Positions 8,218 through 49,765 of a stretch of DNA of 64,000 bases are shown here, in pieces (positions within the stretch are counted from its first letter, which is position 1; the number at the start of each line of letters is the position of its first letter). A program made the position numbers and the translations under genes. The DNA lies in the NCBI RefSeq assembly GCF_964275005.1, contig NC_092688.1, forward strand, positions 22,077,903-22,141,902, in the 5' to 3' direction. The notes under the pieces are model-generated. The model was not told the origin of the DNA. It did not search any database and saw only the letters and a program-made list of their open reading frames with translations. This DNA is from Diadema setosum (Eukaryota; Echinodermata; Echinoidea; Diadematoida; Diadematidae).

Positions 8218-9331
8218 ATAATAATAATAATACTAATACTACTACTACTAATAATAATAATAATAATAGTCAGTACTTAGAACGCATAATACCATAAGAT
8301 ATACGTGTCTCTATACGTGTACAAAATTAATGAAAACAAAATCTCATCACATATTTCTCTATTCAAACATATAATCAACAATTATCAAAAAGGTGAGTTT
8401 TTAACACAGATTTGAATTTATCAAAATCTGTGATGCATCTAACGCTGAGAGGAAGATTATTCCATAATGACGGTGCCATTTTTCCAAAAGCCCTATCACC
8501 AAATGTCTTAGATTTGACACTTATTTCAGAGAGATTTTTTTTTTTTAATTTTGAGTGCAGATTACGACCAGGATGATATGGCGTGATGAGTTCACTGAGA
8601 TATACAGGGGCATTTCCATGAAAACATTTGAAAACAAGGGTCAAAACCAAAGACGCTTAACTATCTCTACTATCTTTGGTCAAAACCTTAAACCTGATAC
8701 GAGCTCTTATGGGCAACCAATGAAGACTACGAAGAATGCACTGTAAAAACATCGGTGTTAGATTTAACACCATGGGTGTTAAATCTAACACCGATCAAGC
8801 TTCAATAGAGGACCACACCAACAGGTGTAGAAATGTATTGTGACGGTGTTAATAAGTGTTCACCTGCCACTTCGTGGTGTAAATTTGACACTGTGGCTGG
8901 TGATATTTCTGACACTGCGCTAGAGTTAATTAAATAATGACACTGCATGGTGTTGATTTGATATTGATGGTGTTAATTTCAATGGTATAACACCCGTCCA
9001 GCTTCAATAGGAGACCACACCAACTGGTGTTACTGTGGTGTAAATGTGTTTACATATTTTTTCAAAAATCAAGTACTTTATCGGAAAATTCTTTATCGTC
9101 TTGTTGGTGTTCAAAATTAACAGGAAGTGTAGTCACTAAGAAACTATTCAAAAAACAATTTCATATTTTGAAATGACACCCGGAGGTGTTAATCTAGCAC
9201 CATGAATGAGCACCGGAAATTTAACACCAGCTCGGTGTTTCATATTTAACACAGGACTTTTTGCAGTGTGGGAGTTATATGATCAAATTTCCTTTTGCGG
9301 GTTACTTTTTAGCCCAAGGAAAGCAAAAAAA
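8218..9331 (-). mobile_element. LINE (CR1/L2/Jockey-type) 3' fragment, split by a MITE
   Basis: On the minus strand the end of a non-LTR reverse transcriptase ORF is readable. 9316-9272 gives KVTRKRKFDHITP. After the inserted MITE (9268-8739) the frame resumes with LRSLHWLPIRARIRF-like sequence and continues with VFKCFHGNAPVYLSELI, FGDRAFGKMAPSLWNNLP and FKSVLKTHLF (stop near 8375). These are the standard C-terminal motifs of CR1/L2-like LINE ORF2. The copy is 5'-truncated near 9331, has an internal stop near the LHWLPI region, and ends in an (ATT/AGT)n tail near 8218-8270. It is a dead copy. Confidence 0.85.
8739..9268. mobile_element. MITE family E, copy 1 (CACTGTAAAAA ends)
   Basis: A 530-bp element with TIRs CACTGTAAAAA / TTTTTGCAGTG and a 2-bp TG flank on each side. 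The interior is packed with 'ggtgtta' and 'aacacc' words in both orientations, so it can fold on itself. It interrupts a LINE ORF, and removing it with one TG copy restores the FDHITP-ILRSLHWLP reading. A second, inverted copy starts at 18610. No transposase is encoded. Confidence 0.85.
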
Positions 9332-10355: not shown

Positions 10356-10515
10356 ACTCTTGGCACATGACACCACCACAGCATGCATTCGTACCCGTTT
10401 TAATCTATGATTCGATCAATGTAAAACCAAAAATAATTATTGATAATAAGAGCACTCTATATACCTCTTATCTTTATTACGTTAAAATAATACAGCTTTT
10501 CTAAGAGCCTGTATA

Positions 10516-11205
10516 TGTGACCGTGCACCTCAAAACGCACATAAAGTCGCACACACAGATTTTGCGTGAGGACTGTAAATAAGTGAAATGGGTCAACCTA
10601 GCCGAACTTGACTTTTTCATATTTTCTGAAAGAGCGGGTCTTCTTTTCCATTACGCTAAAATTTGGTATCGTAAAACGGGCAGGAAAGTGTGTTTTTTAG
10701 CAGTTTATCTCGAACATTTTTGGTAGAATAGTGTGATTAGGTGTGTCTTTAGAATTCCTTTTTTTCATTTCTGAAAAACCTTGTCCACACTCTTCACTTT
10801 CAACTCTAATAACTTTTTAAAGGATAGTGCTACTGCTTTGGAATTTGGCATTAATTATGGACAGAATGTTTTAATGAGGCATGCTTAATTTCAATTTAAT
10901 CTGACAATCCCTTCATTGTTGTTACTCTGGTGGTTTACTTCCTGCTTTGTCCCATTCATCGCACAGCCAGCACGGTTTGGTAAATATTAAGCGCTTGAAT
11001 AGACATTGTACTTCAGAGCCTCTTTTCTCATTTCACACTTTTCCTGAGTTTGTGCTTTCTTTCCAATATTTAGATAGGTTAGGAGAGTCCATTTGATTTG
11101 AGCTATTCATCATTTTAAAGCTTAAAGTCTGCTCTTTCAGAATATGGTGCTAACTAAATATTCATGTCTGGCGACTTTTTATTTGTTTTGAGGTGCAGGG
11201 TCACA
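10516..11205. mobile_element. MITE family C, copy 2
   Basis: A 690-bp copy with TIRs TGTGACCGTGCACCTCAAAA / complement and TA on both sides (10514-10515, 11206-11207). It is inverted relative to the copy at 381-1072 and collinear over its whole length. Confidence 0.85.
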
Positions 11206-12395
11206 TATTATCATAATACTTTTTATGACATAAACTTTATCATGTTATTCAAGTTCATGAAAATAAAACTACAAATCTAATGTGGGCCTACTCATGACAG
11301 TTATAAGTTAAAAAAAAAAAATCTTTTCTTTTTTTGTTTAATTTCTGTCTATAGATCTTGTCTAGTTCTTCAGTGATTATCTAATCTTTCACGACAGCGA
11401 AAGCCAAGCTACTGGAATATATTTTGCTGGAAAAGTAACTGACAATCTATAGTTGCCTTGAAATCAATAATAACTTGCAATCAGTAGTTATACAGTATGA
11501 TAATCATTTACACCATTTTTCCACATTATTACGTGATTATGCGCGATAAAGTGCTATGATATGCACGGCATGCGTCCTGGATTGCCACCAATTCTGTGCC
11601 ATCACTCGACACGTCGGATCTCATACCTGATATTAGCGAGCTTCAGATCTGCGACGCGAACGCTACGACGACGCCTCCTCCGATGTTGCGCAACGGAAAC
11701 AGCTGTCTCCGAGCATTTGCAGAACACCATTTTTTGCCTTCTAGCATCGTCTTAGCTTTTGCGTCGCGGATCTAAAGTTCGCATTACCACTATAAACTTG
11801 TGAAAGCAACGTCAAGTAGGCAAGCTGCCACTGCTAATTTTTTTTTTCTTCTTTTTTCGACAAGGTGAGCGCCTTCCTGGTGTATACCGCCCCAACCGCA
11901 ATATTCATGTCGGATCTTGTTTTGGTTTTATCAAACCTTACATACAACCGTTGGTTTTTTTTTTTTTTTCATAATGAATTTAGGATTGACCGTTCATCTC
12001 AAATTATTCTATAGTTTTAACGCTATATACCGACCCGATGCACCCATGCTTCGGAAAAGTTAAAATCACGATATTCAAGACAACAGTAGGTTTTGTATAG
12101 TTGTCTATACTGAATTCATTAAGTGGGTAAACTTCCCACAGAAATTACATATTTTAGTAGCTTTAGTGCATGTATCATTTATTGGGTTGACTCTATGGTT
12201 GTACTTTGACAGGATTTGACAGGGTAGGCAGTCAAGTCGTGTTCCCGGAGGAATTAAATAGCTTTTGCATGTGTTAAGAGGGATCTGATCTACAGCTCTT
12301 TTGTTATAATGTGACCATAGAAGTTATCATGTGCACAACCTATGGGGATTGTATTGTTTGGAATTGAATGGCTAACCCTGAATGTAATCAGCTCT
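11206..12395. other. Intergenic stretch with one CpG-rich patch
   Basis: Most of it is AT-rich and unassigned. 11560-11770 is clearly GC/CpG-richer. On the minus strand it carries a short frame from ATG 11730 (MVFCKCSETAVSV then an Arg-rich run) reaching a possible donor, CAG|GTATGA, at 11626. A first exon or promoter-proximal region is possible, but no partner exon in a matching phase was found, so I do not call a gene. Confidence 0.35.
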
Positions 12396-18230: not shown

Positions 18231-18609
18231 CATAATGAACAAGACAAAAAAAAATTTCAATTACATATTACAAATTGACAAATTCATCATAGTTCAAAGG
18301 TACATATTGCATAACATATAATTCTGCTTGCCCAATGTATACATAAGGATAGCATATGAAATAGACCAAGTATGGATAATATACAACTCTCTTGTCAATC
18401 AATTTTGGCCAAAAAGTTCTGTATCATATAAGTCATAAAAAGAAAACTTTCAATAATTGCTCATATAATGTTTTTAAAGAAAAAAAAATATAATGATCTT
18501 TAATTACAACACAGCTTTTTGATGTCATATGTAATGATTTTCTGTACTTCCGGTTGTACATGTACATGTAACAGTATACTGTATACTGTATTGCTGTATG
18601 AAGCTATCA
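18231..18609. other. AT-rich intergenic stretch
   Basis: No gene, RNA or repeat family was recognised. Confidence 0.5.
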
Positions 18610-19013
18610 CACTGTAAAAAGTGCGGTGTTAAATATGAAACACCGAGCTGGTGTTAAATTTCCGATGCTCATTTATGGCGTTAGATTAACACCTCCGGGT
18701 GTCATTTCAAAATATAAAATTGTTATTTGAATAGTTTCTTAGTTACTGTTCTTGTTGACTCAAGTTTTGAACGTCAATAAGACGATCAAGAAATTTCCGA
18801 TAAAGTACTTGATTTCTGAAAAAAAAAGTGTGAACACATTTACACCACAGTAACACCAGATGGTGTGGTCTCCTATTGAAGCTGGACGGGTGTAATACCA
18901 TTGACATTAACGCCAGCAATATCAAATCAACACCATGCGGTGTCATTGTTGAACTAACACCAGCGCAGTGTGAAAAATATCATCAGCTACAATGTCAAAT
19001 TACACACCACGAA
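18610..19013. mobile_element. MITE family E, copy 2, left part
   Basis: The copy starts CACTGTAAAAAGTGCGGTGTT and matches the complement of copy 1 (8739-9268) down to 'ttacacaccacgaa'. There it stops at the end of the 6.95-kb palindrome. The next bases of the family ('caggtgaacacttattaacacc') reappear beyond that element at 25964-26003 as 'ccaggttaacacttttcaacacc'. This MITE was therefore present first and was split by the large element. Confidence 0.8.
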
Positions 19014-19955
19014 CAGGCCATGGGCTAGTGGGGGTCAACGTGCACCCCCTCTGCACTTAACATTAATTGTTGTTTCCATGTATCCCTTGGTCTGGAGAGT
19101 CAGAAAAGTGATGTTAACGAAAAAAAAAACTTGGGTGCCAAGACCCGCTCCGTGACGTTTTGTGACGTCACTTCCGAAAAGACCTTTTCGCGAATACGGG
19201 GGAATAGCATTTGGGTATTATCCTAATAAAGTGATCCCCATGCCTTTATTTTTCATTGATAACCAAAGATTTTGGTATTTCTAGAATCCTCAGAAGATGG
19301 GAAATATGATGCAAAGCAAAGTTTGGCAATATAAGCCCTCAGTTTGTCGTCATCGACAACGAAATGGGCAACGATGTCGACAAAATTCAACAAAATTTTG
19401 CAAAATTTGTGCCATTTTTCAAGTTTCACCCTTTAAGTTTGTATATTTTTGTGAAAAATTTGTTAAATGACTTGAAATTTGGTCTGGATATTAAATGAAT
19501 ATCCCTTTTTACGAAAACAAAAGATTTGGGCCTAATTATAATCCGATCTTCTTCTGTTGACATTCAAGTGCGCAGGTGCGGTGTCTGGAAATTAGCCTCC
19601 GAAATGCCTTTTTTTGATGTCCAGTATCAAAAATGAGTTACAACGAATCTTTTTATCATGTAAATTCAAAACTTTCATCAATTTTTGCAATCAGCAATCA
19701 CCTGATTGAATAAAAGTTACCTTAAAATGAGAAATCAAAGATGATTATGGTTCTTTTTGATGATGACGTTGGCCACGACATCGAAGATGAAGACGACGTC
19801 AAAGACTAGAAATACGACATAGCAGGGATTCGTTTAAACAAATCTCATTTTCAATTGATTGATTTTAGCGATAAATTTACAGTAAAGGAAATCAAGATAA
19901 TGAATTTTCAATTCTACTGGCATTTTATTTCTTTGCAATAAACTCAAATCCTGCT

Positions 19956-20526
19956 TAAAGGGGAAATCCAGTCTAAAAATAAGTTAGTCTGATGAAAAAA
20001 GAGTAAAATCTTACAAGTTTAATGGTTAGAATTTGACTGTAATCTGATGAAAAATAAGGAAGTTATTATTTTTTGCTAATTTCTGCAAAACATTTCTTGT
20101 ACAGTGGATAAGAATATGCAAATGAGTAACCTGACCATGTCATAACCTCACAATTTTCCATTGATCGTTTACAAAAGATAAAGAAAATTCAATGTTTCAG
20201 TCATTGAAGTCTGACAAATGATGTTATTCCTGGTTGCATAACTTGGTAATAGATATCATGTTTTGAGCCTCGGCCATAATTGCGTTTGAATGAAAAGCTG
20301 GAAATGTCAAAATTTTATGTACAAACTATATGGCAAGATGTGAGGGGATGACATGCTCACTTTGTCATTTGCATATTCATATCGACCGTTCAAGAACTAT
20401 TTCCTCAAAAAAATAGCGAAACTTCATATTTTTCATGCGATTTCGATCACAATTTTACCACTGCACTCGTAATATTTTACTTTTTCTTCTCGGACTAACT
20501 TTTATTTGGACTGGATTTCCCCTTTA
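19956..20526. mobile_element. MITE family A, copy 1 (TTAAAGGGGAAATCCAGTC ends)
   Basis: TIRs are TTAAAGGGGAAATCCAGTC / GACTGGATTTCCCCTTTA, about 570 bp, with inner words 'ataagttagtc' and 'gactaactttta'. It sits in the left palindrome arm only, so it arrived after the arms formed. A diverged copy lies at 33468-34314. Confidence 0.8.
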
Positions 20527-20821
20527 GATAAAGGCTTATAACTAGCTTCACAATTAAAACACTTATCTCAACTACGCTGCACTCACTGGTACATTTCTAA
20601 ATACTGTATCAGGCGTGGATAATATTTTGACATGATTTTTCCTCTATTTTCTTCAGAAATTGCATCCACATTGAACTTGTCACCGAAATGACACTATACA
20701 TGATGCATAATAGAGACAACGGACTTTTAGAGGCCTAAATTACTTTAATGCTTGTTTGTTTGTTTGTTTGTTTGTTTGTTTTTTAATTTGGGAATGCTAA
20801 TTTGTGGGTTCTTGGCAGTTC

Positions 20822-20890
20822 TGTGGCATAATGGGTAAAACTCCCGATCGGAGGACCCGAGTTCTAGTCACGATTCAATCACGATGTACA
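20822..20890 (+). repeat. tRNA-like segment, probable SINE head
   Basis: The plus strand reads TGTGGCATAATGGGTAAAACTC (A-box-like) and then ACCCGAGTTCTAGTCACGATTC (degenerate B box). The spacing resembles a tRNA, but there is no acceptor-stem pairing that I can see. It lies in the left palindrome arm without an evident partner on the right. Confidence 0.45.
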
Positions 20891-21239
20891 ATTTCTCGAT
20901 GGTGATGATTATATTAACATCATTTTCATTTTATTTCGAAAATTTGGGAATACGGACTTGCAGGTCATCGACAATGAAGTTGGCATACATGAGGTTGACA
21001 AACTTTAAAGTCCACGCAGTTTTTTGCAAGTTCTCATGCTAAAACATCTAAATATCCATTATTTGTGGTAATATCATTAAATGAAATTAAATCTAGTCTG
21101 GATATTAGATAAATAACAATGTTTAACAAAAAGCAAAACAAATAAGGCTTTATCTTAATTCAGGCATCTTCTGTAGACATTTAACTTCACTCTTTTGTTA
21201 GATCAGCCATGGTGCCTTATGGATGTCCAGAAGCTGACG

Positions 21240-21690
21240 CTGATTCACCGGGTGCACCTCACGAATTCGACACCCACGAATCATAGAACCCATGAGTCAC
21301 AGAGCCCGCGAGTTATACAGTCTGTGAGTCCTACAGCCCATGAGTTCGACACCCTTGAGTCTTACACCAGGCAAGCCAGGCCCACGAGTATGACACGTAA
21401 GAAACAAGACCCACGAGAAAAACACATTTACGCCCTGCGATGTGAATATCGAACTCGTGGATCGTTTTTAACTTGTGAGGTTTTTTTCTTCTTTTTTTTT
21501 TTTGGGGGGGGGGAGGTTGTTGTTGCTTAGAAAAGTGTCAAACTCGTGGGCCTTGTTTGTCTAGTTTCAAACTTGCGGGCCTTGTTTGTATACTGTCGGA
21601 CTCATGGGCCTTATTTGCCCGCTGTCGAAGTCATGGGCTGTACGACTCGTTTTCTGTATAATTCGTGGATGTCGAACTCGTGGGATGACA
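21240..21690. repeat. Fold-back array H, copy 1: diverged ~22-bp units
   Basis: The first half is a run of diverged units of the type 'acgagttcgacaccc' (cacgaattcgacaccc, catgagttcgacaccc, cacgagtatgaca). After an AT/G-rich spacer near 21480-21515 the second half carries the same unit in reverse ('gtcaaactcgtgggcc', 'gtcgaactcgtggg'). The array therefore folds into a long imperfect hairpin. It has no matching segment in the right arm of the palindrome, so it is an insertion or a local expansion. Copy 2 is at 49490-49765. Confidence 0.75.
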
Positions 21691-22599
21691 ACGAATCACT
21701 TTGCCATCCTTTGAAAGTCTGAAATTCTTTTGAGCTCTGAATCGAATTCCAATGTCACCATCGTTGTCATCTTATGAGTGTATAGGTTTAATAAATTCAT
21801 TTTTGCTCCTGTCACTGCTTCTATGCCAGTATCGGGCTTTGATGCATCACCCATGGTGCCTTTCAGAACGTCCACAAGCTGATGCGGCATCACCTCCCCT
21901 GAGGTGAAGTCAACAGAGGTCGCATTAGATCTTCATCCTTCGTCTATCCATGATCTTCATTTGGTCCGTTGCTGGCTTCCATATTCTTAGTTTGATAATT
22001 GCTACGGAGAACATGCTGTTCAGAGACGTTTCTGAGAAGCCAGATCAAAAGTGTTTGCCTTTGTGACATAAATCATTTTACCGCAGTTAGACTGTATCGT
22101 CAAGAATCGCAGAGGATCCACCTCCAAATTCTTCTGTTACCATGCAAAACACAGCAAAATATTTTCAGTTCGTCCATCACCTCAGCTGTCCCATTTCATG
22201 ATTCAGCCCTTGTATACGTACATAATTTCTAGGACTCCATGCATTTACTGGCTGCAATACTACTAGTGCCTTATAGGTAAGGGGAAGGTAAAAACAATGT
22301 CGGGGCTGATGAGTCATTTCAAGCTGTATTTCCAAAGCTTGGTGAATCTTGAAATGTTAAAGATGAGATGAAGATGAACTGGAACGATTTACCTGTGCCT
22401 TGTATGGTAACAGAAGACGGTGAATGCCCTCCAAACTCTTTTCAGTCCAAGTGCAGTGAAATGGCTAATGTCACAAAGGCAAAAAACTTTGATCTGGCTA
22501 TGATACCGCCCTGCTGAAAGGTTTTAAAGCAGCATGTCCTATGCAATTATCAAATAAGAATATGAAAACTAGTAACAAACCCAAACGAAAGACATGGAT

Positions 22600-23055
22600 G
22601 GACAAAGGATGAAGATCTAATGCGACCTCTGTGGACCTCAAGGGAGGTGCTGCCGCGTCAGCTTGGGGACATGCATCCTGGAAGTCACTGTGGCTGATGA
22701 ATCGGAGCCGATACTGGTATGGCAACAGTGACATGAGTAAAAATGGATTAATTCAACATAACCGCACTCGGAAAATGACCATTATGGACATTGGAATTTG
22801 ATTTGGTTCAGAACTCATGCGCAAATGAATATCAGACACTGACAGGATGGGGAGATGATTTCGCATCAGTTTGGGGACATCTTGTTAGGCACCATGACCT
22901 ATGAATCGGAGCCCGATACTGATAGTGACAGTGAAAGTGACAGTAAACTAATTCATTCAACCAATAGAATCACAGAGTTACAATGATAGTGACATCGGAA
23001 TTTAATTGTAACAGTGGTCATGGGCAAACGAGTGTCAGACTTTGAAGGATAACTT
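22600..23055. repeat. Tandem pair inside the palindrome right arm
   Basis: 22640-22850 and 22860-23055 are diverged direct copies of one unit. Both run from 'cagcttggggaca' / 'cagtttggggaca' through 'gaatcggagc..gatactg' and 'gacattggaattt' to 'tgtcagac'. The first copy pairs with 21690-21930 in the left arm, and the start of the second pairs with 21205-21245. The tandem unit therefore existed before the inversion or was copied within it. Confidence 0.65.
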
Positions 23056-24221
23056 AGAGCTGGTATATGACTCCATCAATTTCAACATATCGGTATTAAA
23101 CCAGTGGTAATCATTTTAAGCATTTCGATGTTGCACCCTCAATAATTTCATCGGAAGTAGATCATGCTGGAAAAAAATACATAATAATTAGCAAATAAGT
23201 TTTTTTTAATGAAACATCATATAACCAATTCTACTGTGAACAATGTTACATTTACAAAGTTTCTTTATACTTTCAGATGGAATACAAAAATTTTAAAAAG
23301 AGGTATCACAAATATAATTGGTTGGTGTTGACTTAAGTATGAATGCTAATGATATTTTCAAAGCATAAGTTACGAAACCTGACTAAACAAAAAAAAAATA
23401 CTCTTGAAAAAAAAAAAGGATATTGGAATTTGAGTATCTAACAGCAACCAACTTTTAGCAAAGAATGAATGTATTATATGCCTTATATGATCTATGAAAT
23501 TAAACTCTTATTACTGAACTATCATTGTCTAATAACCATGTCAGATAATGTCCCATGAATTGGGGAATTGCTTATAATAGAAATGGTGACAAGAGGCCTG
23601 TATAGTTGCTTCCAATTTCTCATTTTAAGCCAAATTTCTCTTAGTTATTTTCTTTTATATTTTCTTTAAGGCAAATTATAATACTTGAAGTTTAAGATCT
23701 TCGACGAAAAACTGATTGCTAGACAGCAGAAAAGAACTTACGGCGGCTTGTTTCACACACCTTGCATGCATACTAAACATCTTAAAAGACTTCAGGATTA
23801 TTAAAAAAAAACATACTAAATTCTCTTTAAAGGATCGAGATTGTTGAGAAGGCAAAATGCAGATGTAATCAAAATCTTCTTTTCCTCATAGCTAATGGTG
23901 TTAATCTTTGAGGGTCGTCTTAAAGTAATTGCTAAATTCAGTTGAATGTGGTATTTAGACGAAACTCCAATGTGAATTTTGTCATCGACGCCGCTGTCTT
24001 TGCCGTCATCACTGAAGTCAAACGTATTTCAGCAGGCAATTGATGATTTAAACAAAATTATTAAAGTTCCGATTCTACTTGAAATATACGAGTTAACATA
24101 TCAATTTACTAGTCACCAAAAGGGACATTTTGTTGGTTCTTATTTCGCACTCCTCCTGCCCTCTTGAACATCTACAGAAGAGGCCAGGATTAGAATAATG
24201 GCTCATTTGTTCTTTTTCAAT
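23056..24221. other. Palindrome right arm, AT-rich portion
   Basis: No gene or known repeat is seen. I did not find a left-arm counterpart for most of this stretch, so it may be right-arm-specific or too diverged to see by eye. Confidence 0.4.
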
Positions 24222-24811
24222 GAAAGATGGCCAGGAAAAGTTCAACTTGACAGATATGGATTGAGTGAATACACCAATATTAGAAGAACACATCAATGAG
24301 AGTTTGAGGAAAATCAGACAATCCGTTCAAAAGTTATGAATAATAATTTTTGAAGTTTCTGCTCGCTCACTGCTGGATGAGAAGACTAATACAGCTTGTG
24401 ATGTCACTGTCATGTGTAGAACGATATAAAGAAAATAAAAATAAAATTCAACATATTTTCACTTTTCTTACAAAATAAAGAACAATTGACTTGTCTCTGT
24501 CAGAAGACAGGAAGAATAATATCCTTAATATACGTCACTGACATGTGGAAGAAATGTGCACGTTTTTCAAGAAATAAGATTTTGTAGAATTCTCTTTATA
24601 TTTTCCTTTCATTGTATATATCGTTCTACGCATGTGACATCACACACTGTAGTAGTCTTCTCATCCAGCAGTGACAGTGCAGATACTGTAAAAATTCAAA
24701 ACTTTTGAATGGATTGTCCGCTATCCCCAAACTTTTACTGATGTGGAATTCTACTAATATTGCAGCATTATACTTCACCTACATGTTAACGAAGCTGGAC
24801 TTATCCTTTAA
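24222..24811. mobile_element. MITE family B, copy 1
   Basis: Inverted ends are a diverged '..aaaagttcaacttgac..' at the left and '..agctggacttatcctttaa' at the right. The inner inverted pair is 'tcactgctggatgagaagac' / 'gtcttctcatccagcagtga', with 'gtagaacgatat' / 'atatcgttctac'. It is present only in the right palindrome arm. Further copies are at 36712-37191 and 38278-38685. Confidence 0.75.
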
Positions 24812-25963
24812 CATCCAGACTAAATTCCAATTAATATAGTCAATTAACCATAAAGTAATGAATACCTAAATTAGCATAAGAGCTCGTGCTGACTTAGTTT
24901 GTCGACCTCACTAATGCCCATTTCGTTGCTGATGACCTGTAAGTCTCTATTGCCAAAATAGTTTAGGTCATACTGCGTATTAATCAAATGAATATAAATT
25001 CAGTGAAATCAACGGAATAAACAAAAAATCAGATATTGACGTTGATAAAATCATTACCAACGAGGGGGATATTTGACTGACCCAATTACAAACATGACTT
25101 ACAATATTTTACGAAATTTTAAAAGAGACTAAAACATATCTAAAATAATCTCTGCTATATGTCGTAATTCTAGTCTTTGACGTCGTCTTCATCTTCGATG
25201 TCGTGACCAACGTCATCATCAAAAAGAATCATGGTCACCTGTGATTTCTCATTTTAAGGCAACTTTTATTCAATCAGGTGATTGCTGATTGCAAAAAATT
25301 GATTAAAGTTGTGAATTTACATGATAAAAAGATTCGTTGTGACTCATTTTTTATACTGGACATAAAAAAAGGCATGTTGGAGGCTGATTTCCAGACACCG
25401 CGCATGCGCACTTGAATGTCTAAAGAAGAAGATCGGATTACAATTAGGCCCAAATCTTTTGTTTTCGTGAAAAGGGATATTCATTCAATATCCAGACCAA
25501 ATTTCAAGTCATTTAACAAATGTTTCACAAAAATATACAAACTTAAAGGTGAAACTTGAAAAATTGCACAAATTTTGCAAAATTTTGTTGAATCTTGTCG
25601 ACATCGTTGCCCATTTCGTTGTCGATGACGACAAACTGAGGGCTTATATTGCCAAACTTTGCTTTGCATCATATTTCCCATCTTCTGAGGAATCTAGAAA
25701 TACCAAAATCTTTGGTTATCATTGAAAAATAAAGGCATGGGGACCACTTTATTAGGATAATACCCAAATGCTATTCCCCCCATATTCGCGAAGAGGTCGT
25801 TCCGGAAGTGACGTCACAAAACGTCATGGCGCGGGTCTTGGGACCCAACTTTTTTTTTGTTAACATCACTTTTCTGACTCTCCAGACCAACGGCTACATG
25901 GAAACTACAATGAATGTTAGGTGCAGAGGGGGTGCACGTTGACCCCTACTAGCCCATGGCCTG

Positions 25964-26005
25964 CCAGGTTAACACTTTTCAACACCCTCACAACATACTT
26001 TACTT
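25964..26005. mobile_element. MITE family E, copy 2, right remnant
   Basis: 'ccaggttaacacttttcaacaccctcacaac' matches the continuation of the MITE interrupted at 19013, at about 80% by eye, and then ends. It marks the right edge of the large insertion. Confidence 0.55.
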
Positions 26006-32100: not shown

Positions 32101-34618
32101 GGTTTATTTTTTGTGGGTTTGTTTTAGTTGTTGCTGTTGGTGACACTGTACTTTGTTTCACGCGCATTTTTTTTTTGTTTTGTTTTTTTATTAAGTTAAA
32201 AAAAAAAGTTCTGTCAATGAAAGACGTGATGTTGAAGCGGGAAAATTCACATTAAAATTTTGACACCAGTCAGCACCAGTCTGTCTATTGTGTGTTCTGT
32301 CAAACAGAGATTACTCGGCATATTACTACAACGGTGGAACTAGTGACAGCGCTTTCCATCAAACAGTGTCGTCCCATGTCGGTTGCTTCCGGAAATGCCT
32401 GTCATCGCAGCGTGAGGAATACTGTACCTATGTGGCACGATGTGTAAGTCCTTTCTCCCCTTATCATTCTCCTTTCGTCACGTTACTAATCTGCAAAGGG
32501 TGAAAGGTGGATGTTTAGAGCTTTGGCATTGATTAACAGAAAATTTTCTCATCAGTCTGTTCCAAAAAAATGACGCATTCTCTAATAGAATAATGATGGT
32601 GCCATTATGTGCGTGCATGTTGTGTGTTCAACGATATCATATCAGTATCCATTTTTTGTTTAACTTAGTGGAAAAAAGCCCCGACTGATATAAGAGCAAT
32701 TCAAAAGTGAATACAAAGTATATGAATTACGATATATACCTGTTTAAATCTATCACTCACACGCAGCCTAATTTCCAGCAGTATGTCATACCTATAGACA
32801 TCGTACGTTTTAAATCATATTCATCATGTGAGGTCCAAAGAATGTTATTGTATAGAAAGTTGAAGAAAATGAAGCATTTCTCTTGAGCATGAGATATCAT
32901 ACAGAGCTGAAATTTTGCATAATGGTTCGGATTTATTTGGCAAAGATTTCGTTCAACAAATATTGACATTGGTATCCAAATGCATCGCCTGTGGATATCT
33001 TTACAGAATCGGCATAAAAGTCTGTACCTGTTCTACGTAAAAGACTGGATACGAGCCTACGGGCGCAGTGGCGTACACTTCATGACACTGGAGGATTGGC
33101 ATGCAGATACTGCCGGAGAATACCGCAAGCTTCTTCGCTTTCTCCAACTCCGTGAGTATTCAAGCAGTTGAGGAAGTTTATAAAATTTACGGCAGAATTC
33201 AGACAAAAGATAAAGATTTGTTAAACAAATTTCGTGAGAATGTGAATTAAAATAAATCTGCCATGTCTTACAGCTAACATAATTCCAATTCAATTTGCTG
33301 TGCCTGTTAAGTTATATCATTCTGTTCATTGTTTGTCTTAATGGGATCTAATATAGATTCACATAGTTCACTGTCATTCAATATTAAAGTCGTTACTGAC
33401 TGAATAACATGTTACTACATAATCATCTGAGTCATTATCATTGTAAGCTAATCATAAAACCATTTCAGTGCAGTTGAAAGTCTGAAAAGAAGAAGTAAAA
33501 TTTTCTCAACAACAAAAAAAAATGAAAATTTTATCAAATTCAGATGAAAATTAATGAAGTTATGACATTTTGAAGATTTGCTAATTTTTCAGGAAACAAT
33601 TAATGAACAGTCAATATCAACATGCAAATAAAGCAAGCGAAGACAGTAGATGAATACAATGTCTGGAAAAACAACAACTTAAGGTTTTATATCCAATATT
33701 GGAACCGTAGGCCTATCATTTAGGCTGTTTGTAGGTACCAGTCAAATCGTATCATTATACCATGTACCATGTGGCGTGACGTTTATTTCTACGTGAATGT
33801 TTATGTGAATAATTTTTTTTTAGTGGAAAAAATGAATAGACAAAAAATTTGATAGTCATGGGAAGATGTCATCCCCTCACAACTTGGCATTTATAGGTTT
33901 CACATAAAATTGTGGCATTTCCGGTTTTCATTCAAACGCAAACGCAATAAGAGCCCTCTCATATCCTGACATATATCTAATTAATCATTGATCTGAAACT
34001 ATCCAACCAGGAATAATATCATGTTTTACACTTTGAAAGCAAAAAGATTACATTTTTTGTCATTTTTTTTCTTTACACGATCAATGAAAATTGTGAGGTG
34101 ATAACATCATCAGCTCACTCAAACATGAGCATAATATTCATAGCAACTGGAAGAGAACCATTCTGCGCAAATTAGCGAAACTTCATGCAATAATTTCATA
34201 TCCTCACTAATTTCTATCCGATTTTGATCAGATTTTCACTGTTTATATGCAATTTGCAAAAGTTTACTGTTTCTTTTCAGGCTAACTTATTACTGGACTG
34301 GAATTCTTCTTTATGTATTAATTTGCAGTCGGGATTTGTTAGCTACAAAGCATTGTCTCCGCATTGTCTTATCCCTTTTTATTTTCTCTCTCTGATGTTT
34401 GAGCAGGTGACCTCACTGACGAACAGATAGGACACATCACTGCCAGAAAGTCTCAGAACGTTAACTCGAGGAAGGCGGGTGGGGGTACCATGTGGAACTC
34501 TACGCAGCAAATCCTTGACGACTTTTATCGACCATACAATGTCAGGCTTGCCCACTTCCTAAACGATACCAAGTACACTTTTAGCAGGCAAAGAACACAG
34601 CCCTTGGTGTTTCCGTAA
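26117..34618 (+). CDS. CHST15: CHST15-like N-acetylgalactosamine 4-sulfate 6-O-sulfotransferase
   Basis: Seven exons with agreeing phases: 26117-26881, 27617-27860, 28785-28931, 31226-31364, 32308-32443, 33007-33151 and 34407-34618 (stop TAA 34616), giving about 595 residues. Exon 1 starts with a hydrophobic anchor (VLGLTVLLFATSCAVNYLA) and then about 220 residues of charged, disordered stem, as in type II Golgi enzymes. Exon 2 has NPCWYRG, LPYFYIIGMPKCGTTDVWD (5'-phosphosulfate loop GMPKCGTT) and KEPHWW. Exon 4 has GDASISTAWDN and KIIMVLRNPTDR, which continues in exon 5 as DYSAYYYN (the 3'-phosphate loop). Exon 6 has LYLFYVKDW and MTLEDW, and exon 7 DFYRPYN. This order matches vertebrate CHST15, which transfers sulfate from PAPS to C6 of GalNAc-4-sulfate in chondroitin to make the CS-E disaccharide. 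The start codon is uncertain. An acceptor (CTGAAACAG) at 26116 suggests an upstream exon, although an in-frame ATG at 26042 exists. The stem is longer than usual. Confidence 0.92.
27019..27188. mobile_element. MITE family I, copy 1 (hairpin)
   Basis: A 170-bp near-perfect hairpin with GTCAGCGCTGACAAGTTGTC-type arms, each arm holding 'gtcagtctctgacaat', and 'tgatgaaacaccc' at the edge. It lies in intron 1 of the CHST15-like gene, 140 bp past the donor. The second copy, inverted, is at 62115-62288. Confidence 0.85.
28262..28350 (+). mobile_element. SINE 3' fragment
   Basis: GGGGCCCTCTGGTAGAGCTG followed by GAAGAGGCTACCCTGGATAAAT matches the 3' part of the SINE at 13360-13590 with few differences. 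The tRNA head is missing, so the copy is 5'-truncated. It lies in intron 2 of the CHST15-like gene. Confidence 0.7.
29775..30060. repeat. Palindromic-unit repeat K, copy 1
   Basis: The region is built from diverged repeats of 'ttcggattaacgaaccttcggaataa' and its variants ('ttcggaatagcgaacc', 'ttcgttatac'). Each unit is itself partly palindromic. It lies in the CHST15-like intron 3. A second array of the same unit is at 58880-59160. It resembles an expanded satellite or fold-back element and has no coding content. Confidence 0.7.
30061..31225 (+). other. CHST15-like intron 3, remainder
   Basis: Unassigned AT-rich intron with a poly-T run near 30692-30710. No exon-like segment fits the gene's phase. 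Confidence 0.5.
33468..34314. mobile_element. MITE family A, copy 2 (diverged)
   Basis: The right end 'gctaacttattactggactggaattcttcttta' and inner words 'gatgtcatcccctcacaac' and 'catttccggttttcattcaaacgcaa' correspond, inverted, to the copy at 19956-20526. It fills most of the last intron of the CHST15-like gene. It is longer (about 850 bp) and more decayed than copy 1. Confidence 0.65.
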
Positions 34619-34689: not shown

Positions 34690-36711
34690 AAAAAAATCGA
34701 ATAATCGACTACAATTTGCACAGTGTCAGTGTGTCAATGTATGATAGGAAATATTGTGAAATATTTAATTAGAATGGGACAAAAATGCTCCATTAATTGC
34801 ATTGCTGTATTATGTGATGATTGAATCGAATGATGGGAATGCAGTGCCATGCTGAAAACTGGCATCTTCCATCATTTTCGCCAGATAACGAAAGTGGGCT
34901 ACATCGCCTTTTTTCTTATTCTGCAGTAAACATGATTTGCCAGTACTAAGAAATAGCAACTTTAATTCACTACCATTTTTCAAATCCACAGAAAGGTTCT
35001 CTTTTCTTACCCACGATTCGTCTTCGAGAAAATCTATTTTACAAAAATAATGTGAGAAAGACATGGTCAATCAGCGTATTGTGGTTATGCGTCTGTATAC
35101 TGCATTGTGTTTTCGTGTGAGTATAAAAATTGTCATGATGCTTACTATAATATCATGTGCACCTCAAACGGCAGTAAGGTTTAATAAGTAGTGGTATGAT
35201 GTGACAGTATTGTTATCTACTGTTTTAAATCACTGTTATATTTTATTACTATTACCACCTTAAAGATCAAGAAAAATCAAAATGATATCTATCTCATGTG
35301 AGACTTGACTCAAAAGTCTTATGCAGATGCTAAATGCCGTAGAACATCATGAAATCATATAGTAAATCTATGACGTATTTAACTTGAATAGCAATTATAA
35401 CTTGCACTGGTTTCAGACGACTGCAAAACAAAATCCACATTTTATATCCACGTGATTAGATGTTGCCACGCATAACCACAGGTGTGTATTGTTTACTTTA
35501 GCTTGCCTTCTTATCGTTTCTATAGTTTGTTTGTTTGTCTGTTGTTGTTTTTTGGTCTGTTATACAAGAAATGTAAGCCTTTTGACAATGCAAAATTGCC
35601 AACCAAAATGAAAATACATGTATTATCAGTTGATATCGATTTAGAGTTCTACGCCATGTTTAAGTTGATTTTCATGCATAAATTTGAGCTGGCCGAAATA
35701 GTAACAGTTACAGAAGTCAGACCTAGTAAGCCCACAATATTACAAAATTCGGAATTAAAAAGTACATTTTTGTAAGTCAACTCAAACCGCATTATACAAA
35801 CATTCTTATCGACCTGAAGCGAATCAATCAGGATTGCCAGAATCTAAATCAGAATGTACCAAAAAAAAAAAAAAAAAAAAAACAGTAACATTATTGTAGC
35901 AAACAAAATCATGGCCAGTCATCACCGGTAGCCGTAAAACCTACTGCTTTTATTACACTGTAAGTGCAACATCAAAAAAGTGTTCGTTCTTTTCCCTTGT
36001 AGTCCCTTGTAGTCTTTAATTCTAACTTTCATTTCTTTTCCAACAAGTGACAGAATCATTTCAACAGCCTAGGTTTGATAACTGCCTCTCACGCTATATT
36101 TGTGCTTTGCTTGATGATAACCATGAGGGGTTTTGTTTTTAGTTTTCCATTTTGTAAATACATTATCAATATGATTTACTAGAAAAAAAATGTGATCCCT
36201 GAAAATGTGAAATTAATAAAATATTATATAAATCTAAGTTCAAAGCAGCCTTTGGCTTTTAAAAAGAACGTGTGCGTATGCTTGTGTTTTGCGTGCTATT
36301 GATCTCAGAAGTGATTACCGTGGTTACAGTGAAGAAACAATGTTCATGCATTTCAGCTAATTCAGCATGTCTGATGCTAATGCCTGAGGGAGCTCATTCA
36401 TATTGTAGGAACAATCGCTAAGGGGCGTCACTGTGCTTCCACAATTTTATGAACCTGGGAATACATGTATTTAACTTTCTTTATTGCACAAAATATATTC
36501 GTTTTTTAATGATTACGTTTGTATTTGTCTTTAGGGTGTTTTTTTGAAAGCAAACAAAAGTGGTTCCAAGCTATTAAAAAAAAATCCAAAACGATTTATG
36601 CTATACTTTGTACTCATACTCACCCACAATGCAACATGAAAAACTGGTAACGGTGGTTCGAGTCGTGCAATCATGCAATCATATTTGGAATAGCGAGCTT
36701 GCTCTTAATAA
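34690..36711. other. Intergenic stretch without recognised genes
   Basis: AT-rich, with a poly-A run at 35861-35882. Several short open frames occur, but none has splice sites plus coding composition. Confidence 0.5.
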
Positions 36712-37191
36712 AGTTAAAAACTTTTGAAGTTTCTGCGCAGTCACTGCTGGATGAGAAGACTTCTGCGGTGTATGTCACATGTAGAGCAAGGAAAATGTAA
36801 CGAGAATTCCACGAAATTTCGTATTTTCAAAAAAAAAAACACATTCCCTTGATTCGTTACTGAAGTATGTTATGAGTAATATGATTCCCACTGCCTTTAG
36901 AAAGAGGCAAGTCAAAGAGCTCTTTTACTATGAAAGAAAAGTGAAAATAATATTATGTTGAAGTTTCTTTTTTCTTTATATCGTTCTACGCATAATGATT
37001 ATGAGATCACCAGCTGCTGCTGTAGTAGTCTTCTCCAGCAATGGCGGAGAAACTTCAAAAATGCATAACTTTTGAACGAGTTGTCCGATTTTACTCAAAC
37101 ATTCACTGATGTGTTCTGCTAAAATAATGTAATTGTTGCATTCACTCAATCCATGCACATGTATGATTATGAAGGTTGACTTGTCCTTTAT
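36712..37191. mobile_element. MITE family B, copy 2
   Basis: It carries 'agtcactgctggatgagaagac', 'atatcgttctacgcat' and the right end 'gaaggttgacttgtccttta', as in the copy at 24222-24811. The left TIR appears to be missing. Confidence 0.7.
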
Positions 37192-38277: not shown

Positions 38278-38685
38278 GTAAAGAAAGCAATACAAAGGGA
38301 ATTCCACAAAATTCCATTTTTCGAAAATTGCACACATTCCCTCCATCTATTATTAATATCATGTTAAGGGTGATAACATTCCCCCTGCCTTCTGAAATAG
38401 CAAGTCAAGTAATCTTTATTATGAGTGAAAAGTTGAAATAAATGGATTTGCTTTATGTTTTCTTTATATTACGAGACACGTGTGAAATCACAAACAGTAT
38501 AGTAGGCCTATAGACTTTTCATCCAGTGATGACGGCACTGAAACTTCAAAAAAAATTTAAACTTTTGAACTTTTGAACGGATTTGTCCGATTTTCCTCAA
38601 ACTAGTACTGATGTAACCTGATCTATACTAATAATTGCGGCACACATTCAAGACACATGTTTATTAAGATGATTACTTGTCCTTG
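38278..38685. mobile_element. MITE family B, copy 3
   Basis: A third copy, with 'gggaattccacaaaattcc', 'tcatccagtgatgac', 'tgtccgattttcctcaaac' and the right end 'gattacttgtcctt'. It ends 90 bp before the orphan exon at 38777. Confidence 0.7.
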
Positions 38686-39388: not shown

Positions 39389-42300
39389 ATGGATGAGAAA
39401 CCACCGCCGAGCCGAAGATCGTCTGGACACAGCGAAAAAGCTAAGAAATCTAACAAAAAGAAGAAGAAGAGCAAATACAAAGAACGAAAACGTGGAAAAT
39501 CGAGTCCCGACGAAACAAATTCGGACAGTGCGTTGGAGACTGGTGAGAAGTTTACTTTTAAAGTCATTCTTTAGTCTCGTTAGTCAAACGTCAAGTGAAA
39601 TAGAGCCTAATTATCAAGCTATTTACAGCAAAAATTTCATGTTTCGTTCATATTGTCATATTCAGCTCAGGCTGCCAATTTTGGGTTAGGGTTGGAGTGA
39701 TCTAACCGGTAGTGAGACACTGACTGTTATAATTAATAATGAGAGAGGGATCGAAGCGACGGTGGTCATGGGGGGGGGGGGGGGGGGGGGGATCGTGTGA
39801 AGGGAAGTATATGTGACCCTGCACCACAAAACCAACAAAAAGTCGCCAGATATGGATTTTTAGTTAATGACAGATTCTGAAAGAGCAGACTCTAGATCCT
39901 AATTGTTAAGCTTTAAAATGATGTATCAATTCAAATGACCTCCCCTAACCTACCTAATTAGTAAGTACTGGAAAGAATACACACACTCTGGAAAAGTGTG
40001 AACTGAGAAAAGAGGCTCTGAAGTACAGGGCCTATTCAAGCACTTAATCTTTACTAAGCCGTGCTAGCTGTCCAATGTAAGGGACAAAACACAGGATGTA
40101 AACCACTGGAGCAATAACAATGAACTAGAAGGGATTATCAGATTAAGCTGAAATTGAATATGTTCTATTAACACATTCTGGCCATGATTAATGCCAACTT
40201 TCAAAGCAGTAGCGTCATCTTTTCAAAAGTTATTACACTTGATTGAAAGTGAGGAGTGTGCAAAGGATTTCAAGACATGAAAAGTGGCCTCTAAGACATA
40301 CATTGTACCTGATCATTCTACTCTTCCCCCCAAAAGGGGTTGAAGAACAACTGCTAAAAACACACTTTCCCATTCATGTGAAGATCCCAAACTGAAGAAT
40401 AATGTAGAAGAAGGATAGCTCTTTCAGAAAGTATGTAAAACTCGAGATTGACTTGGTTGAACCATTTCACCTTTTTTGAGTCCTCACGTGAAAGCAAGGG
40501 GTGCTACTTTTTGTTTGTTTTGTGATGCACGGTTACATATCTCTCCCCTCCCCCTTTCCACTGGAGGGAGCTTTGACAATTTTACGTTTTAAATGGTGCA
40601 CTCTGGTGCATACACCACTTCAGATTCAGTGAAGATTTCAACTTGTGCATAGAGTAGAGTCTAGAGAGGGTGTGCCTGTCATACATGCAGCTGTGGGAAA
40701 ATCTCGAAATTTTGGACTAGGTGTCTAGTTGCATGTTTGGATGATCAGAGATTTTGGGGACATTCCTTTTTCTCACTTTCTGATTTCGCGTTTCAGCCTG
40801 AGAATTCTTTCCTCAGAGTGATACAGTCAAAATTTGATGAATTGTGTGAGTTTCTTGCCTGAGAGTTGGCAGCCCAGTTATTACCCATCAACCCCAGGGC
40901 ATTCCATTGTAAAGTTGTAGAAAGTGTGGGAGATGGATTGCTTGCGTTTGGGCTGGACGCAATTAATTACCCATTACAGATTGTATTAACACTGGCCGGA
41001 ATGCGAAGCCGCTACCTCTTCATGGCAGTGCCTTGGGGTTCATTAAATACCCGTGTTCTTGTTGATCTAAAAAGACCAGACCCATAATTGAAAGTAGGTT
41101 TATCAGAGCTAAATTCTAAAGAAAAACTCTCCTCTTAATCTTGATACTATTGGGTTAGTTCTAGACCTGTAGTATCAGGCCTATTAATAGTTGACCAAAA
41201 AATCGGTCTGTATCTTGTTGGGGATATGTTCTGCAGAGACTACATCTGGCTTCACAGAATCCCCTCCGGAGAAGAGCTCTAATTAAGTTTAAAAAAAGAA
41301 TGATAAAAAAAACACTCCTTTGGACAGACAGATTTTTCTGTGTAGCCTGTTAGCAGCATTCCAAGAATAGGGGTCTACACACTCTACGTTTTCACCTCTA
41401 GATTTATATTGCTGTCATGAAGAGATCTCATTGAATCATAATACAACTACAACCAATATTGTTATGACTGTCACTGACTATTAATTGGAGTATACTATCA
41501 TTATTATTATTGTTGTTGTTATTGTTATTGTTATTGTTATTATTATTACTATTGTTGTTATTATTATTGTTATCATTATTATTGTTGTTATCATTGTTAT
41601 TATTATTTTTATTATTATTATTATTTATTCGACCAGGTAAAGAATATAGGACACATATCATAAACATTACTGTTTTCTACTTGGTAGTCTACACCCGTTC
41701 TAGGGCTCATACCAATATTATAACTACTACCAACTTTGTACATGTACAAGGCTGTACTACAGTTGTAGCTGTGTGCTCACTAGAAATGAAAGAAAATGGC
41801 ATAGATCTAGAACCTATATGATTGTATGTCTAGGTCTAGAACTACATGGTATGTGTTATCTTGGCTTTTGAGAGACTCCACTTCTCGTCTTGCTTATCAA
41901 TTTTATGCCTCCGTCACGGAGTGTCGCCGGAGGCATTATGTTTTTTGTTTCTTTTGTTTACTGTTTTGTGGAATTGAATTATTGACATCAAATTTGTGTT
42001 TGTGTGTGTGTGTGTGTGTGTGTTTGACAAATGTCTGTAAGTTTCATGGGCTGCAGTTCAGGATGTGTTTTAGGGTGGGGGAGGGTGTGATTTTTTTCCC
42101 CCTAAATAGATTTTTTTTCTTCTTTACTGACCAGAAAAAGTGTGGGGGAGGCTACACCCCCCCCCCCCACCCCACGTTGTTCTGCACCCCTGAGTTTTGT
42201 GTATAGTTGTAGAGTACTTGTCCCGCACACTTTCTTACTTTTTCGTTGACAAGTGGATTTATCTTCATGATTTCACTTCAGTGCTGCTGCAGTAATTTAC

Positions 42301-49489: not shown

Positions 49490-49765
49490 CACCTTCGAGT
49501 CATCCAGCCCTCGAGCTAGACACCATGTAAAACGGGTCCACTAGCTAGACCTTTTTTGCCTATATAGTGTAGAGATCATATATGCCTTATTTTCCTAGGG
49601 TCTAACTCATGGAATGTGTAGCTCGTGGACCTATTTCAGTTGATGTCGAGCTCGTAGTCCTTGTTCACTTAGTGTCTAGCTCGTCGGCTGTATGGCTCGT
49701 AAGCTGTATTTCTAACTGTTGGGTTGTATGACTCGGTGGCCGTATGACTCGGGGGTGTCGAGCTT
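49490..49765. repeat. Fold-back array H, copy 2
   Basis: It carries the same style of unit as 21240-21690: 'tcgacaccttcgagtcatccagccctcgagctagacacc' at the left, then the reverse 'gtcgagctcgtag', 'gtctagctcgtcggctgtatggctcg' and 'gtatgactcgg' at the right. The consensus differs slightly (ctagctagac versus gagttcgac). It lies 410 bp past the LIAT1-like stop, possibly within its 3' UTR. Confidence 0.7.

Follow-up and report, generated by a model that had tools for sequence, protein, structure and literature searches.

The 6,950-bp element located at positions 19014-25963 of the window, by which is meant the whole stretch of 64,000 nucleotides of Diadema setosum DNA analysed here (C4:22077903-22141902), is best explained as a copy of a small family of non-autonomous, foldback-like, cut-and-paste DNA transposons with terminal inverted repeats (TIRs) of ca. 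0.82 kb, tips of the form TAGG...CCTA, 3-bp target duplications, and outer arms that exchange sequence with each other. A probability of roughly 0.8 can be given to this reading as a whole. The element is mobile, as indicated by its many copies in the genome (912.7 Mb in 102 contigs were searched), their paired tips and 3-bp duplications, and its insertion within another repeat, which bears out what an earlier note, made from the letters of the window, had proposed on mobility.

Copies of the element across the genome

A search with the 823-bp TIR rendered 40 scored matches (the best 40 of 65 candidates), of which 30 constitute 15 inward-facing pairs, 14 of them spaced by 6.5-15.1 kb and one by 37.5 kb. 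The tip pattern TAGGCCATGGGCTAGT was found exactly at 33 sites and with one mismatch at 20 more, both tips of the window copy being among the latter, and contributed six pairs beyond those of the TIR search. When up to two mismatches were allowed, 100 + 116 sites were found versus 25 + 48 for the reversed control, and two-mismatch sites were counted only where the TIR search backs them. Altogether, at least 21 loci, including the window, have both ends, and at least 11 have a single end, several of these with interior matches. These counts should be read as minima, since only the best candidates were scored, and three one-mismatch tips (C5:21369555, C7:19028789 and C14:4675548) are kept outside them.

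Fourteen of the 20 other paired loci were read over their whole length, in three cases piecewise. The tips TAGG...CCTA are found in these 14 loci; in L037, L038 and L042, one of the two tips is altered within its first four bases. An exact 3-bp target duplication, whose triplets are variable and rich in A and T, surrounds 13 of the 14 copies, L037 being the one without it.

Interior matches tied to no tip were detected at C20:33.10, C1:33.82, C12:30.61 and C3:7.04 Mb. Matches to the central palindrome described below fall in paired or single-ended loci of the family, except for those at C10 3.42, C14 16.23, C5 21.34 and C2 33.85 Mb; the C14 and C5 matches lie 22-28 kb from a tip. The match at C16:27059677 retains only ca. 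the first 75 bases of the TIR. An exact tip match at C22:16828788 was considered as a possible related family and rejected, as it corresponds to a single old, rearranged copy of the family (C22:16826624-16828823; L056, L057, L058), which matches at ca. 66% over 1 kb of the TIR; it is adjoined by a stretch resembling the inner block TIR' (Table 1), in an orientation opposite to that of the window element. A search with the TIR of this copy rendered no closer kin among the best 40 of 53 candidates.

The window copy and its junctions

The element is inserted inside another repeat, since the sequence at 18608-19013 matches that at 9270-8871 at 88%, as the earlier note had held. The intact site of this host repeat was found, using a short pattern, at 394 + 367 = 761 places (control, 0 + 0), and all but two of the sites listed read ACACCACGAA-GTGT or GTGC-CAGG, while the second copy of the repeat in the window (8871-9270) reads GTGG at the place of insertion. 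The flanks of the window element stop at CACGAA and restart at CCAGG; GTG, expected twice, is absent, and there is no target duplication. The tips at both ends are CAGG and CCTG. The identity of the tips pointed out in the earlier note is real, but the family tip is TAGG, and CAGG accompanies an aberrant junction. The exact 16-mer CAGGCCATGGGCTAGT is confined genome-wide to these two tips, so that the refuting condition of the earlier note, a lack of further copies with such tips, holds in the literal sense only; T as the first base reveals the other copies.

An abortive excision that was rejoined with small losses would explain this junction. It could also be that insertion in this family normally leaves CAGG tips and a missing triplet, for instance at a site carrying a deletion, with no later damage involved, and L037 offers a second case of a copy without duplication. 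We consider this unlikely, given that tips of the TAGG type and duplications are found in 13 of the 14 other copies, and that GTGT or GTGC stands here in the intact repeat at all listed sites except two.

Architecture of the element and its shared interior

Self-comparison gave 93.6% identity between the two 823-bp TIRs over 827 columns. With a more sensitive comparison, an inner inverted pair of 69% identity was detected (20943-21107 / 24809-24957), as well as a central palindrome that matches its own reverse complement at 68.6% over 1,230 columns (E 3.5e-151). The best inverted self-match of the interior, outside the TIRs, scored 366, compared with a maximum of 26 among 50 dinucleotide shuffles, and is thus far above chance. 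The earlier note had described one giant imperfect palindrome running from the tips to a centre. The TIRs, the inner pair and the central palindrome are indeed there, and overlap the inner pairs that it listed, but the symmetry is not continuous, as the collinear mirrored blocks account for 1,547 (left) and 1,534 (right) of the 6,950 bp. The description is thus an overstatement: this is a TIR element whose interior contains mirrored remnants and separate hairpins. Four modules are palindromic about their own centres, namely two that resemble miniature inverted-repeat transposable elements (MITE A and MITE B), the tandem-like array H, and the central palindrome. The folding of MITE A far exceeds that of shuffled sequence (z -11.6, 100 shuffles), and so does that of 21694-22690, the initial 997 bases of the central palindrome (z -19.5, 20 shuffles). 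The inner pair is itself a diverged duplicate of the middle part of the TIR, since 20964-21184 is 66.7% identical to 19349-19567.

Ten other copies, L033-L042, hereafter the siblings, have the same interior, with a palindrome at the position of MITE A, a central palindrome (interrupted in L041) and, at least partly, array H; the MITE B palindrome is found in nine of them, L041 being without ca. 23.92-24.59 kb. Identity of the window copy to the ten siblings is 92.4-96.4% per 250-bp bin (ungapped, alignments below 82% set aside), with no outlying segment. Since the siblings also carry MITE A, MITE B and array H, these must predate the spread of the family and were carried by the master that was amplified. 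The earlier note had taken these modules for later insertions differing between the arms, and had deduced from them that the inversion is old; the inversion is older than the spread, and MITE-like modules do interrupt the arms, but the insertions are shared by the siblings. L043 and the copy on C6 are without 21.79-24.42 kb, one breakpoint lying inside MITE B, and carry ca. 2 kb of additional sequence near 20.62 kb; this deletion subfamily retains the tips and the 3-bp duplications.

These data bear on the alternative that an inverted duplication of a whole arm of ca. 3.5 kb produced a single giant palindrome that folds and moves as a unit. Three kinds of mirrored block (TIR, TIR' and central arms) do stand in the right order, and the modules fold far better than shuffles. 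On the other hand, the collinear blocks make up less than half of the element, MITE A, array H, the central palindrome and MITE B each have a centre of their own, the deletion subfamily keeps tips and duplications after losing the stretch mentioned above, and no exchange was seen on the inner arms (see below), all of which makes this alternative very improbable. Of what the earlier note proposed, the foldback-like build is supported, but not a single palindrome spanning the element. That the arms originated through an old inverted duplication would be compatible with the transposon reading favoured here, and would form part of it.

Probable exchange of sequence between the outer arms

The TIRs of both sides were aligned for 15 copies, of which 12 were used, L043 and the copies on C6 and C3 (37 kb) being excluded as a diverged group. 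The left and right TIRs of one copy are on average 93.88% identical, versus 93.21% (standard deviation 0.09) for permuted pairs, and none of 20,000 permutations reached the observed value. The age of the copy cancels out in this comparison, because each TIR enters every permutation once. Substitutions seen in exactly two of the 24 TIRs (doubletons) numbered 79, of which 23 were in true pairs, 18 in false left-right pairs and 38 in same-side pairs, that is, 1.92 per pair for the 12 true pairs, 0.136 for the 132 false left-right pairs and 0.29 for the 132 same-side pairs. The 23 private substitutions common to both TIRs of one copy compare with ca. 1.6 expected; they comprise 11 transitions and 12 transversions, with one at a consensus CpG, and are distributed among 11 of the 12 copies. 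Seventeen of them lie within TIR positions 244-577, where no difference between left and right is fixed (p 0.001, for a region picked after the data were seen). One of the 23, the terminal base of the window copy, may have a different cause. In the inner arms, none of 235 left-arm changes was shared with the opposite arm (central arms, 0/102 in 11 copies; MITE A, 0/78 in 12; MITE B, 0/43 in 9; TIR', 0/12 in 8), compared with 21 of 263 in the TIRs of 11 copies (Fisher p 1.1e-6). These results suggest mutual copying of sequence between the two ends of an element, in which its older, inner mirrored parts no longer take part. Because exchange between the outer arms can explain their close match together with the poor match of the inner ones, different ages need not be invoked.

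Several observations speak against the explanation favoured here. In addition to the lack of a target duplication in the window copy and in L037, no transposase was recognised in the copies read and no autonomous partner was found. With regard to the exchange, L033 has no shared private base, and the counts on the inner arms are small, with only 12 changes in TIR'. Eight columns distinguish the left TIR from the right one in 10 or more of the 12 copies, so that exchange must be limited; identity among left TIRs (94.0%) and among right TIRs (94.4%) is higher than between left and right (93.2%), and the 38 doubletons of the 132 same-side pairs, whose members belong to different copies, imply that descent contributes. 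This descent structure would be in line with the view that the bases common to the TIRs of one copy reflect parallel mutation or unsampled subfamilies, and not exchange, but parallel mutation would strike false pairs as often as true ones (see the frequencies per pair above) and hardly fits with the share of transversions and the single CpG site, and descent alone cannot place one new base on both arms unless the ancestor had already been converted, so that this view is very improbable.

Proposed mechanism and significance

Movement by a transposase that recognises the TIRs and is supplied in trans is the established route for elements of this kind, and it fits the present family because of the 3-bp duplications. 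A transposase made elsewhere would have cleaved the tips and disseminated a master in which MITE A, MITE B, array H and the central palindrome were already present, its arms having presumably originated through the old inverted duplication. Mutual copying, whether through intra-element gene conversion or through foldback or gap repair, would have kept the outer TIRs nearly identical; the inner arms would have drifted to ca. 70% identity and ceased to exchange. The junctions of the window copy would have been damaged during or after insertion, for example by the excision and loss of a few bases considered above.

It can be imagined, although we hold it to be quite unlikely, that the family represents an undescribed transposon lineage with a self-correcting pair of ends, in which the TIRs template each other and the interior decays into hairpins, and that the window copy is a repair event caught in place, as the unusual base shared by its two tips and its broken junction might indicate. 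If this were true, working ends would outlive mutation. Very long TIRs recur across unrelated transposons, and this family permits a direct count, within the element, of shared new bases, which makes mutual templating of long ends testable with a few dozen copies. The family shows as well that a composite with older MITE-like modules can spread whole through one transposon family.

Coding capacity and search for a transposase

The longest stop-to-stop frame of the element encodes 117 amino acids, and none of the 10 frames compared with Pfam, out of 24 of at least 60 amino acids, gave a match above the cut-off, in agreement with the absence of a transposase or long open reading frame noticed earlier. 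The ISAzo13-like transposase of Zator was sought in the genome as PF07592 with no match, its controls being silent too. For PF00867 (XPG_I), XPG being the nuclease domain of the Academ transposase, three matches were found, none in a paired locus, although a diverged domain could escape such a search. PF13359 (DDE_Tnp_4), the transposase family of PIF/Harbinger, gave at least 153 matches, none of those listed being in a paired locus (the best 150 of 324 candidates were scored).

The 15-kb copy on C13 (C13:33729757-33744436; L044, L045) was considered as an autonomous element and rejected, as nested within it is a Gypsy-type retrotransposon whose 190-bp direct repeats are 99.5% identical. The long insertions in the copies on C6 (15 kb) and C3 (37 kb) showed no transposase among the frames, some of the total, that were compared with Pfam. 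In the latter (C3:27716318-27753841), an insert of ca. 30 kb is located at the edge of MITE B (L048 6066 to L051 6269); its two ends match each other inverted (57 columns, 91%), one of its frames matches P2RX7_C (E 3e-15), and it is possibly a large nested element. Apart from the Gypsy-type retrotransposon and the P2RX7_C-like frame, the tested frames of insertions in other copies remained below the Pfam cut-off. The ca. 2 kb of extra sequence common to L043 (2154-4189) and L046 (2162-4141) contains some frames that look reverse-transcriptase-like by eye; four frames from it gave no Pfam match.

Features of the element and of its surroundings

The coordinates of the element and its flanks are given in Table 1. 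Elsewhere in the window, a 29-bp tandem repeat (49613-49684), with unit AATGTCGAGCTCGTAGACC..., resembles the unit of array H. Another dispersed repeat is represented by 373-1084 and 10512-11214 (93.5%, inverted) and by 39809-40550 (75-76% to both), and a minus-strand open frame at 55500-56003 matches FAM101 (E 9.9e-10).

Table 1. Positions, in window coordinates, of the parts of the element and of the repeat that it interrupts
Feature	Position	Strand	Details
Left TIR	19014..19836	+	Tip CAGGCCATGGGC, family form TAGGCCATGGGC; 93.6% to 25963-25141; 40 scored genome matches
Right TIR	25141..25963	-	Tip ...GCCCATGGCCTG
MITE A, self-palindromic module	19956..20526	.	67.9% to own reverse complement; in siblings; related stretch 33866-34313
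Left inner block (TIR')	20943..21184	+	Diverged mid-TIR copy, 66.7% to 19349-19567; 69% to 24957-24809
Array H, tandem-like repeat	21255..21687	.	Weakly self-palindromic, 58.7%; in siblings at least partly
Central palindrome	21694..22860	.	Arms ca. 21704-22205 and 22343-22850; 68.6% to own reverse complement; genome matches
Additional diverged copy of a central-palindrome arm	22849..23101	.	66.8% to 21899-21656, inverted
Right inner block (TIR'), first part	24025..24225	-	64.6% to 25267-25472, direct
MITE B, self-palindromic, splits right inner block	24233..24807	.	68.5% to own reverse complement; related 36710-37154 and 38289-38614
Right inner block (TIR'), second part	24809..24957	-	69% to 21107-20943, inverted
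Left flank, portion of interrupted repeat	18608..19013	.	88% to 9270-8871; 761 uninterrupted genome sites
Right flank, same repeat resumes, ca. 30 bp	25964..25993	.	25/29 bases match the copy at 8.87 kb

Comparison with known systems

With inverted repeats at both ends of the 21 paired loci and a 3-bp duplication of fixed length in 13 of the 14 other copies, the family belongs with the class II TIR elements, and its very long TIRs, able to snap back, are foldback-like; short tandem repeats of the FB/Tm1 type were not found in either TIR by a tandem-repeat scan. An assignment to Polinton/Maverick, suggested by the fact that other copies match from query base 2 (AGG), was rejected on the basis of the 3-bp duplication, the target duplication of that group being 6 bp according to PMC10045372. 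The same paper gives 3 bp for Zator and 3-4 bp for AcademX, both of which the family fits by duplication length.

Tetris of Drosophila virilis, as presented in PMC4079207, which also cites long-TIR elements of sea urchins, is similar in having long TIRs (up to 1,735 bp), a non-coding middle and no autonomous copy found, but differs in its duplications of 8-10 bp and multi-domain TIRs, the present family having 3-bp duplications and no tandem-repeat array found in its TIRs. Galileo, of the P superfamily, likewise has long TIRs (mean 668 bp) and many non-autonomous copies, and its authors propose recombination and exchange among arms and copies, recombination being one reason they see for such TIRs; its 7-bp flanking duplications and known P-type transposase, of which none was found here, set the present family apart from it (PMC3573991). 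In the Tm1 Mutator/Foldback elements of root-knot nematodes, the TIRs of one element average 93.15% identity, a value close to ours, and most groups are small and non-coding, with transposase copies alongside; they differ in their 9-bp duplications and in the 13-15 bp tandem repeats within their TIRs (PMC3169594). A description of the family was not found in a literature search of titles and abstract openings, and as Repbase and most subscription papers lie outside that scope, novelty in print is not claimed. The family is a new one within a known kind, and the contrast between arms that exchange sequence and arms that do not is unusually clear in it.

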